64,000 nucleotides of DNA from contig NZ_BPIJ01000001.1 in the NCBI RefSeq assembly GCF_026004055.1, positions 248,001-312,000 on the forward strand, written 5' to 3'. The notes under the pieces were generated by a model. That model was given only the letters and a program-made list of their open reading frames with translations, made no database searches and was not told where the DNA came from. Positions within the stretch are counted from its first letter, which is position 1, and the number at the start of each line of letters is the position of its first letter. Below are positions 3,000 through 4,462 of this stretch, piece after piece. The position numbers and the translations under genes are program-made. Source of the DNA: Meiothermus sp. (GTDB lineage Bacteria; Deinococcota; Deinococci; Deinococcales; Thermaceae).

Positions 3000-3134
3000 A
3001 TGAAAAAGCTCGCTTGTTACGGAATGGTATGGCTGGCACTGTTTTTGGCGGCCTGTGGGGGGAGCGGTGGGAACAATGGCTCGAGCGCCGGTCACTGGGA
3101 CAGTGCAAAGTGGGACGAAGCCAAATGGCAGTAG
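3000..3134 (+). CDS. Small lipoprotein, 44 aa
   Basis: MKKLACYGMVWLALFLAAC is a classical lipoprotein signal with lipobox LAAC (Cys19 would be lipidated). The mature part is only about 26 residues, Gly/Ser-rich, ending in a short near-repeat DSAKW-DEAKW. AGGCAGG precedes the ATG at 3000; the frame opens earlier (2940) without a ribosome site. It ends 11 bp before the start of the S74 protein, so the two are probably cotranscribed and may work together at the cell surface. Function unknown. Confidence 0.7.
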   Translation: MKKLACYGMVWLALFLAACGGSGGNNGSSAGHWDSAKWDEAKWQ

Positions 3135-3145
3135 AGGAGGTTTTT

Positions 3146-4462
3146 GTGCCATACAACAAACTTTTCCTGGTGGGGGCCATGTTGACGGCGGGGGGATTGT
3201 TTGGGCTATCGGTAGGCGACCTGATTACCTTCAAGGCCGGAGACCCCATCAAGTCGGCAGAGGTCAATGCTAACTTCAGCACCCTCAAAGCTGCAGTGCA
3301 GTCCCTGGAGGCCCCCATCGGGGTCTCACGTCTGGCTGTGGAAGGCACCCCCGCCGACGGCAAGGTCTTGAAGCTCCAGGGTGCCAGCCTGACCTGGGCC
3401 GATGACCTCGTAGGCGGCCCTGGCACCAGCTACAACGCAGACGGCACCAGCCTCCAGCTTGTGGGCACCACCTTCTCGATTAAGGACGGTGGGGTGGGGA
3501 ATGCCAAGCTTGCGGACGGTGCTGTTACCGCCGGCAAACTCTCGCTCCCCCTGAACCTCAGCAGCTCTAGCGCAACCGCAATCTCGCTCGTCAACACTGC
3601 CGGCAACGCGCTCAGCAGCGTAAGTAGCGGCGGCGGCATCGGGGTGCTGGGGCGTGGCACCACCCGGGGCATTGTGGGCACCCAGGGTGATCTGAGCCTG
3701 TCGTGCGCAGGCACCTTCGGGGTGGGCGGGTGCGCTGAGAGCAGCGGGGTTGGGGTTTTTGGGCGCAGCGTCAGTGGAAATGGGGTGCGCGGCGTTAGCG
3801 ACACTGGTAACTCGGTCTACGGTGATAGTGGATCGGGTATTGGGGTGTGGGGGAACAGCACCACCCGGGGCGTGGTGGGCACTTTGGGGGGAACCTCCTG
3901 TGCCGGAACGTATGCGGTAGGCGGCTGTGCTGCTAGCGGGGTTGGGGTATTGGGCAGGAGTTCGGGCAACGATGCGGTGGTGGGAGAATCTACCAGCCCT
4001 AACCACGCGGCTGTTGCGGGATCCAATACGGGGGGTGGTTTCGCGGCCTACTTCGAGGCGGGCACGGCGGTCTGCTCCTTCAAGGCGGGCACTACCGGCT
4101 GGGCCTGCTCCTCCGACCGGAATCTCAAAGAGAACCTCGAGGCGGTGGACGCCATAAAGGTTTTGGACGCGGTGACCAAAATGCCCATCACCACCTGGAA
4201 CATGAAAGGCTCCAAGACCCGCCAGATGGGCCCCTCAGCACAGGATTTCTATGCTGCTTTTAGGCTGGGTGACGGCGATAAAACCATCAACACCACCGAC
4301 GCACAAGGGGTGGCGCTGGCTGCCATACAGGGCTTGAACACCAAACTGCAAGCCCAAAACAAGGCCCTCGAGGCCCGGGTGCAGGAGCTGGAGTCCCAAC
4401 TTGCAACCCTTCACTCGCTACAAGCCGAAGTTGCGGCCCTAAAAGCCCAGATCAGGCGATAA
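3146..4462 (+). CDS. Secreted fibre-like protein with C-terminal S74 chaperone/protease domain
   Basis: GTG 3146 is chosen because AGAGGAGG sits just upstream and the product then begins with a signal-peptide-like segment (PYNKLFLVGAMLTAGGLFGLSVG). Residues about 160-310 are Gly-rich imperfect repeats of the GVGVLGR / RGVVGT type, expected to form a beta-structured shaft. S323-D324 in the sequence SSDRNLKENL starts a Peptidase_S74 intramolecular chaperone domain, which in phage tailspikes trimerises and then cleaves itself before Ser-Asp. The last 50 residues are a heptad coiled coil. No phage genes are nearby, so this is likely a cell-surface protein rather than a tail fibre. Confidence 0.85.
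   Translation: MPYNKLFLVGAMLTAGGLFGLSVGDLITFKAGDPIKSAEVNANFSTLKAAVQSLEAPIGVSRLAVEGTPADGKVLKLQGASLTWADDLVGGPGTSYNADGTSLQLVGTTFSIKDGGVGNAKLADGAVTAGKLSLPLNLSSSSATAISLVNTAGNALSSVSSGGGIGVLGRGTTRGIVGTQGDLSLSCAGTFGVGGCAESSGVGVFGRSVSGNGVRGVSDTGNSVYGDSGSGIGVWGNSTTRGVVGTLGGTSCAGTYAVGGCAASGVGVLGRSSGNDAVVGESTSPNHAAVAGSNTGGGFAAYFEAGTAVCSFKAGTTGWACSSDRNLKENLEAVDAIKVLDAVTKMPITTWNMKGSKTRQMGPSAQDFYAAFRLGDGDKTINTTDAQGVALAAIQGLNTKLQAQNKALEARVQELESQLATLHSLQAEVAALKAQIRR

Follow-up and report, generated by a model that had tools for sequence, protein, structure and literature searches.

Phage-like trimeric fibres are known from the bacterial surface: among the mosaic adhesive trimeric (MAT) fibres of Bdellovibrio, 13 carry an S74 domain and eight do not (PMC10769870). 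In Fusobacterium, the small lipoprotein FAD-I is encoded with the large adhesin RadD (PMC7023056), and in Vibrio fischeri the surface lipoprotein TasL serves specific cell-cell contact and is likened by its authors to tail fibres (PMC9040878). Here we describe a gene pair in a 64,000-nucleotide stretch of Meiothermus sp. (NCBI RefSeq GCF_026004055.1, contig NZ_BPIJ01000001.1, positions 248,001 to 312,000; the whole stretch is termed the window), which encodes a 44-residue putative lipoprotein ending in WDxxxWDxxxWQ, the tag, followed by a Gly-rich fibre that bears a conserved N-terminal motif, the socket, and a C-terminal S74 domain. Sequence comparisons suggest that the two proteins probably form one surface-fibre unit in which the tag docks into the socket.

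Window-type fibres have the MAT-type build, combining a constant N-terminus with swappable S74 or non-S74 C-terminal tips, and they also share the SDxxxK motif and the signal peptide, on which alone their export is predicted (PMC10769870). They may differ in the constant part, described for MAT fibres as a beta-rich domain of about 130 aa (PMC10769870) and comprising here about 40 aa in all, an arm plus a helix, and they differ in the partner: that of the MAT fibres is stated to await identification (PMC10769870), whereas the tag lipoprotein is encoded next door. TasL is reported outside any operon, unlike the present pair (PMC9040878). With phage S74 tail fibres and endosialidases (PF13884) the window fibre shares an S74 domain with SDxxxK that ends a Gly-rich fibre, but the 22 phage records found match its S74 end only, and it has a signal sequence and scanned neighbours without a phage family. 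A small lipoprotein encoded with a large adhesin is also represented by SadB/SadA of Salmonella, and both RadD and SadA are autotransporter adhesins. We know of no C-terminal tryptophan tag or socket in FAD-I/RadD or SadB/SadA, pairs that were not compared by sequence.

The tag has no entry in Pfam, NCBIfam or the Protein Data Bank (PDB), the socket has no family in Pfam or NCBIfam and no solved structure in the PDB (best E 0.081, a short match to cysteine desulfurase), and PHROGs gave nothing convincing for either. A literature search, outside which most subscription journals and preprints lay, returned no paper giving the motif as WDxxxWD or WxxxxWxxxxW, and queries on fibre docking, lipoprotein plus fibre, Meiothermus fibres and bacterial S74 gave nothing on tag or socket among the top matches. 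These searches thus found no paper, family or structure for the coupler of tag plus socket; the fibre tip is of a known kind, and the docking-peptide idea in general is not new. This shifts the emphasis of the original prediction, which had proposed a lipoprotein-anchored cell-surface fibre and had seen the surprise in an S74 domain at the cell surface. The pair is real and conserved, and anchoring is its best reading; an S74 domain in such a place is not the unusual part, because S74 surface fibres are known from Bdellovibrio (PMC10769870) and only 8 of 119 socket proteins examined here carry the domain. What is unusual is the tag, its pairing with the N-terminal motif of the fibre, and the recurrence of the same junction in some viral contigs.

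The relatives were to be checked for the same pair, and it recurs both in the family and across phyla. When 50 genomes of Thermaceae (Meiothermus, Calidithermus and Allomeiothermus among the named members) were searched with each protein, what proved conserved was the lipoprotein together with the N-terminal ~100 residues of the fibre. The DNA pattern of the tag (WDxxxWDxxxWQ-stop) occurs in 26 copies in 16 of the 50 genomes, its reversed-pattern control in none, and a socket protein (one truncated, at locus L064) starts 1-20 bp after the tag gene in 24 of the 26, the exceptions being L065 and L078. The family socket proteins begin with a signal sequence followed by FxAGTPIKxxEVNxNFxxLrxAIeaLE. 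A socket profile found 43 copies in the same 16 genomes; tag and socket are jointly present or jointly absent in 50 of 50, genomes that share ancestry and do not amount to 50 independent trials. Within the group g4 (27 genomes), one genome has tag and socket and 26 have neither. The fibre tips vary within the family, with S74 in the window, L067, L079 and L081 and other endings elsewhere. Since the window holds a single Wx4Wx4W C-terminus on both strands together, that of the lipoprotein itself, and the pair recurs across phyla, its presence in the window lies far beyond chance.

Several observations concern copies of this unit, which is multicopy in the window's genome, with decayed copies. 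L064 (G000:C1:107 kb, in that same genome) pairs an intact tag lipoprotein with a fibre of only ~115 aa and is apparently a decayed copy; L065 (G000:C2:892.8 kb) is an orphan tag lipoprotein with no following socket, beside opposite-strand ORFs that by eye resemble an HNH protein and a cysteine desulfurase. A second socket protein (~190 aa, with a constant KTFYL.EEN-like C-terminus) lies downstream in L064, L068, L070-L074 and L076-L078, giving two sockets to one tag. Relatives of the window fibre are found on plasmids of Allomeiothermus silvanus (NC_014213) and Meiothermus taiwanensis (NZ_CP021131), which suggests that the unit is mobile.

Beyond the family, a tag-pattern scan of an 84,980-species genome collection returned at least 118 stretches, and all counts drawn from it are samples among the matches listed. 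The hosts are mostly Gammaproteobacteria (Vibrio, Alcanivorax, Marinobacter, Ferrimonas, Zhongshania and others), with further matches in Desulfobacterales, Myxococcota-type metagenome-assembled genomes (MAGs), Leptospiraceae, a Planctomycetota MAG, Ghiorsea, a Betaproteobacterium, Parvularculaceae and Trueperaceae; among the titled cellular hosts, those with a socket belong to diderm groups. The tag stands in frame at an ORF end in 122 of 124 stretches (the 118 of the cellular scan and six viral ones; exceptions L143 and L157). With a profile built solely on 32 N-termini of family members, signal peptides removed, a socket match (E<0.01) follows within 500 nt downstream of 72 of the 111 tags outside the family and 9 of the 11 inside it. 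Every socket match at E<0.01 in the tag loci lies on the strand of the tag, including 26 further ones, 20 of which are 750-1750 nt upstream, the gene order being reversed. With pairing defined as same strand, up to 0.5 kb downstream or 5 kb upstream and E<0.05, a socket accompanies the tag in 95 of 105 cellular loci outside the family, some of them from one genome (tag first in 73, socket first in 20, both in 2). Fourteen whole genomes reached through tag loci hold 16 sockets in total, one or two per genome. Because the gene order flips, a split gene, in which tag and socket were formerly one protein, is a poor explanation of the pairing, and with the order reversed in 20 of the 105 loci it was dropped.

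Among the 95 paired carriers, a simple automatic rule detects a lipobox in 56, which range from 38 to 683 aa by the start that the rule assigns, and many of the other 39 have a lipobox by eye or are cut by the locus edge. The residue after the lipobox Cys is Gly in 38 of the 56 detected lipoproteins and Asp in 3; with predicted lipidation, this would place the tag in a membrane, presumably the outer one. Sorting tags such as PEP-CTERM and GlyGly-CTERM offer a different explanation for a short, exact C-terminal motif on many different carriers, most of the readable ones of which look exported: the tag could be a sorting or export signal for dedicated machinery, making no contact with the fibre, and the two genes would merely be co-regulated. 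We consider this unlikely, as the tag tracks the N-terminal motif of the fibre in both gene orders and, within Thermaceae, at the level of whole genomes.

The same association appears when the search starts from sockets. The socket profile was run on 369 evenly drawn gammaproteobacterial genomes, centred on one (G056) that had itself been reached through a tag locus, and found 40 sockets in 26 genomes, 37 surrounding stretches being examined. These 40 include close relatives or copies from one genome (seven in G096). Under a relaxed definition of the tag (Wx4Wx4W, 0-4 residues, stop; same strand, within 5 kb of the socket), the bare rule places a tag near 31 of 40, five of them strict. Two matches, both at L291, lie in a 43-codon frame and were judged spurious, leaving 29 of 40, four of which also occur in the tag-first set. 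For these 29 sockets, the tag lies upstream in 25 cases (no more than 180 nt away in 24, at 1.8 kb in one) and downstream in four. Opposite-strand tags were seen for 2 of 40 sockets, both at L291, a locus with a tag-like end in the reverse orientation. As background, the relaxed pattern occurs once in 1.0 Mb of shuffled sequence and three times in 368 kb of real family flanks.

The anatomy of both elements is narrowly constrained. A fourth Trp five residues earlier is found in 0 of 94, 0 of 25 and 0 of 29 tags of three sets, all sought as a three-Trp pattern (identical tag ORFs counted once, giving 25 for the family, and the spurious L291 match excluded from the 29), and the protein ends one or two residues past the last Trp. 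In 5 of the 29 gammaproteobacterial tags (L287, L295, L299, L301, L305), Cys stands two residues before the first and third Trp, always at both positions (CxWxxxxWxxCxW), which probably makes these tags disulphide-clipped elements. The socket lies close behind the signal peptide, and little or no variation is seen at F, V, N, N and F of FxAGTPxxxxEVNxNF. From 171 socket proteins collected, 119 were scanned against the family libraries after exclusion of short, cut or redundant ones, and across these the socket is the sole cluster of nearly invariant columns. As the socket alone is common to all the fibres, it should be the partner of the tag. No library family covers the shared N-terminus, because none matches more than 8 of the 119 (maximum per family: Pfam 8, PHROG 7, NCBIfam 6). 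An AlphaFold model of an in-frame read-through chain of tag and socket (25-row alignment) renders the socket as an extended arm leading into a long helix.

The tips, by comparison with this N-terminus, are diverse. At E 0.001, among the best 25 of 45 Pfam families for the 119 proteins, S74, DUF7452 and LbR_Ice_bind match eight proteins each, FGE-sulfatase six and collagen five; C1q, Collar, Gp53-like and one carbohydrate-binding module match singly, a YadA-like beta-roll is among the tip kinds, and tail proteins make up 16 of the 25 PHROGs listed. In a single socket protein there is a hit to Pfam Pilin (PF00114, E 1.4e-29), which reflects either a fusion or an artefact of the reading frame. 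These tips bear on where the fibre resides. As the scanned neighbours include no outer-membrane translocator (none was sought elsewhere in the genome), the lipoprotein might instead hold the fibre in the periplasm or S-layer space, giving it the role of a spacer or envelope-linking rod in place of that of an exposed adhesin. Such a placement is improbable in our view: the tips are highly variable and adhesin-like (collagen, YadA-like, C1q, FGE-sulfatase fold, one carbohydrate-binding module), and Bdellovibrio fibres built along the same general lines are surface-located (PMC10769870).

A relaxed tag scan of IMG/VR viral contigs, together with the earlier six, gave 120 viral loci with 57 in-frame tags, figures that again hold among the matches listed. 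On 1.18 Mb of these loci the socket profile has nine matches at E 3e-5 or better, in seven loci, and for seven of the matches a tag is no more than 65 nt away. The proteins of L388 and L427 are the same, and in each of these loci a second socket follows the first, ~1.6 kb after one tag. Viral fibres begin at the socket and have no signal peptide (as with MTVPYIFTSGTPISASQVNVNF, the start of one with PHROG tail-spike matches), the exception being L322, which has one. At L386, the tag ends a protein without a Pfam match that is related to 14 named-phage records, one annotated DUF2612, and the next gene encodes a socket fibre with S74 (E 1.7e-14); judged by its sequence, this locus is a viral mirror of the window pair. 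At L217, the tag ends a PAAR protein and the socket of the next gene scores only E 0.3, and most other in-frame viral tags have no adjoining socket. An alignment of the viral sockets finds fourteen viral sockets, five of which are its own source contigs; among the nine independent ones, the near-identical L437 and L438 are preceded by a tag at 2.3 kb and L442 has, 3 bp upstream, a variant tag with Phe for the second Trp. The pair was absent from five INPHARED records of named phages that were inspected, and a second query gave no match. Because many viral sockets and tags are unpaired, the joint would be one option among several in viruses. The viral tags nevertheless end proteins beside fibres that lack a signal peptide, and since these signal-less fibres show the same pairing, a membrane sorting signal explains it poorly.

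Taken together, these results support a model in which the lipoprotein, once exported and lipidated at Cys19, would be retained in the outer membrane, where its WDxxxWDxxxWQ tag would bind the socket (FxAGTPIKxxEVNxNF plus the helix start) of the exported fibre. Binding is the reading we prefer because the socket alone is shared and because a sorting signal and a split gene explain the pairing poorly. The fibre would trimerise with S74 as an intramolecular chaperone, S74 would probably be cut off, and the variable tip would act as an adhesin. Several tip folds are trimeric, and trimerisation, suggested by these tip families, would fit the three Trp units of the tag. Tag and socket would stay constant while tips are swapped among S74, YadA-like beta-roll, DUF7452, collagen, FGE-sulfatase fold and C1q, and in some phages the same joint would hold a fibre on a virion protein. 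Direct binding, one tag to three chains, lipidation, surface exposure, cleavage and adhesion are the elements of this model that we infer.

A number of observations weigh against tag-socket docking as the basis of such a unit. A recognised socket is absent from 10 of the 105 tag loci, although one of the ten (L140) does give a socket with a later profile (E 3e-5). Conversely, 11 of the 40 gammaproteobacterial sockets have no same-strand tag after the recount, among them L308 with a tag variant in which Leu replaces the first Trp; about nine family sockets lie away from any tag, all in tag-containing genomes; and six of the nine independent viral sockets have no tag. Most viral tag carriers have no assigned role. 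At least seven cellular carriers (L103, L117, L125, L156, L158, L183, L209) lack a lipobox and carry an ordinary Sec signal instead; anchoring in a membrane is therefore not a general property of tag carriers. The passage of the fibre across the outer membrane has no explanation in the model, and in the read-through AlphaFold prediction, a monomer only, the tag makes no confident contact (tag blocks pLDDT 50-58).

Some of these loci have features of their own. The carriers lacking a lipobox are small secreted proteins of ~130-140 aa with an LIF/LIY...GFE-like start and the socket gene first (L103 has sockets on both sides). Two actinobacterial loci among the ten without a socket, L116 and L160, have ORFs ending in long tandem WDRSS or WDSNA arrays.

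At the locus itself, the lipoprotein has the lipobox L16-A17-A18-C19 (LAAC) behind a short signal peptide, from which lipidation is predicted; its location in the outer membrane is presumed. Library matches to it are weak: PHROG 5610 (unknown function) covers residues 1-44 at E 0.019, NCBIfam models touch the signal region only, and a PDB search with the lipoprotein found no solved structure (best E 0.46). The arrangement originally predicted, a 44-aa lipoprotein 11 bp ahead of a Gly-rich fibre, was verified by its coordinates (Table 1), with 11 bp between the lipoprotein stop and the GTG of the fibre. An in-frame ATG at 3125 is a less likely fibre start because the Shine-Dalgarno sequence sits 3' of it.

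Table 1. Features of the lipoprotein-fibre pair, in positions of the window
Feature	Position	Strand	Description	Basis
Lipoprotein ORF, 44 aa	3000..3134	+	Sec/lipoprotein signal, Gly/Asn linker, C-terminal tag	Sequence and relatives
Tag, residues 33-44, with stop	3096..3134	+	WDSAKWDEAKWQ; three tryptophans spaced five residues	Sequence, positional conservation
Shine-Dalgarno of fibre gene	3135..3140	+	AGGAGG	Sequence
Fibre, 438 aa	3146..4462	+	GTG start, putatively exported	Sequence, Pfam, relatives; export predicted
N-terminal signal sequence of fibre	3146..3214	+	Hydrophobic; putatively cleaved	Sequence; helix 4-19 in AlphaFold model
Socket motif, ~residues 23-60	3212..3325	+	VGDLITFKAGDPIKSAEVNANFSTLK...; conserved arm, then helix start	Profile match
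Variable fibre shaft	3548..4111	+	Gly-rich	Sequence; low-confidence model
S74 intramolecular chaperone/autoprotease (predicted)	4112..4261	+		Pfam, AlphaFold, Foldseek
S74 motif codons	Ser323 4112-4114, Asp324 4115-4117, Lys328 4127-4129	+		
C-terminal coiled-coil helix, residues 383-437	4292..4456	+		AlphaFold, block means 87-98

The window socket scores E 7.7e-17 against the socket profile (G000:C1:251212-251325), the window sequence being itself a row of that profile. The S74 assignment with Ser323-Asp324 also held: PF13884 (Peptidase_S74) matches residues 323-372 with E 5.7e-10 and 39.8 bits against a cut-off of 22, the single match at E 0.001 in the 3.18-Mb genome, and Lys328 completes SDxxxK (S323-D324-R-N-L-K328), the catalytic motif of S74 (PMC10769870). 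Given this motif, self-cleavage at the S74 domain is expected and is probable from the sequence; it has been shown for the S74 fibre Bd3182 (PMC10769870). A weak PHROG tail-fibre match spans residues 100-427 (E 9.3e-6). In an AlphaFold model of the fibre (16-row alignment, pLDDT averaged in ten-residue blocks), residues 331-438 have block means of 81-98 and residues 321-330 a mean of 65, the socket region is moderate (74-78), and residues 57-320, with most of the shaft, are of low confidence; the C-terminal coiled coil first read from the sequence is reproduced as a well-predicted helix. A Foldseek search with this model returned nothing at E 0.001 or better, its top match being the S74-type MyRF ICA domain 7dc3 (probability 1.00, E 0.01), followed very weakly by the endosialidase chaperone 3gw6 (E 4.4-9.3). 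The C-terminal region of the fibre is accordingly modelled with the S74 fold.

The surroundings of the pair were scanned with Pfam over seven ORFs in the 15 kb upstream, the part of dnaG in the window, the ORF at 2163-2906 and four ORFs downstream to 9.8 kb. Matches comprise dnaG, a short-chain dehydrogenase/reductase (SDR), parts of a branched-chain amino-acid transporter, a 4-alpha-glucanotransferase, a trypsin/PDZ protein, a solute-binding protein and an AAA protein; three of these ORFs have no Pfam match and none of the scanned neighbours belongs to a phage family, in agreement with the first reading of the locus. Phage structural genes nearby would mark a prophage tail fibre; with no phage family among the scanned neighbours, a prophage origin of the pair was dropped. 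S74, the PHROG tail-fibre matches and the same joint in viral contigs could still point to a phage fibre that was domesticated or survives as a remnant, accompanied by a small phage-type lipoprotein, for instance a receptor-blocking superinfection-exclusion lipoprotein. We judge this very improbable: besides the neighbourhood, the cellular fibres carry signal sequences, the window's genome contains several copies of the unit, decayed ones among them, and tags on lipoproteins of up to ~680 aa and on viral-contig proteins fit a joint better than a protein that blocks receptors. The joint itself may be of phage origin. The 247-aa ORF at 2163-2906 lies directly upstream of the pair; it was rejected as a third partner, since nothing in Pfam, NCBIfam or PHROGs matches it and the other loci compared contain no homologue. 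A promoter and terminator scan of the locus showed no promoter-like site and was otherwise uninformative.

The question of how phage-like trimeric fibres are kept on the bacterial surface is open, and the authors of the MAT study await identification of the surface element (PMC10769870). From sequence alone, a 12-residue tag and a ~40-residue socket predict fibre partnership in several diderm groups and in some viral contigs. Anchoring can be put to a direct test with a peptide plus a short fibre base, and the tag allows a genome-wide search for surface fibres. More tentatively, and with somewhat less than even confidence, tag and socket may be a universal fibre coupler common to diderm bacteria and tailed phages, in which each WD repeat would clasp one chain of the trimer and the constancy of the coupler would let fibres pass from one lipoprotein to another, and between viruses and cells, with no re-engineering. 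Were this true, it would be a candidate for the kind of surface partner left unidentified in the Bdellovibrio work (PMC10769870). The coupler links the evolution of phage and cellular fibres and could give a small, portable coupler for the display of trimeric proteins.
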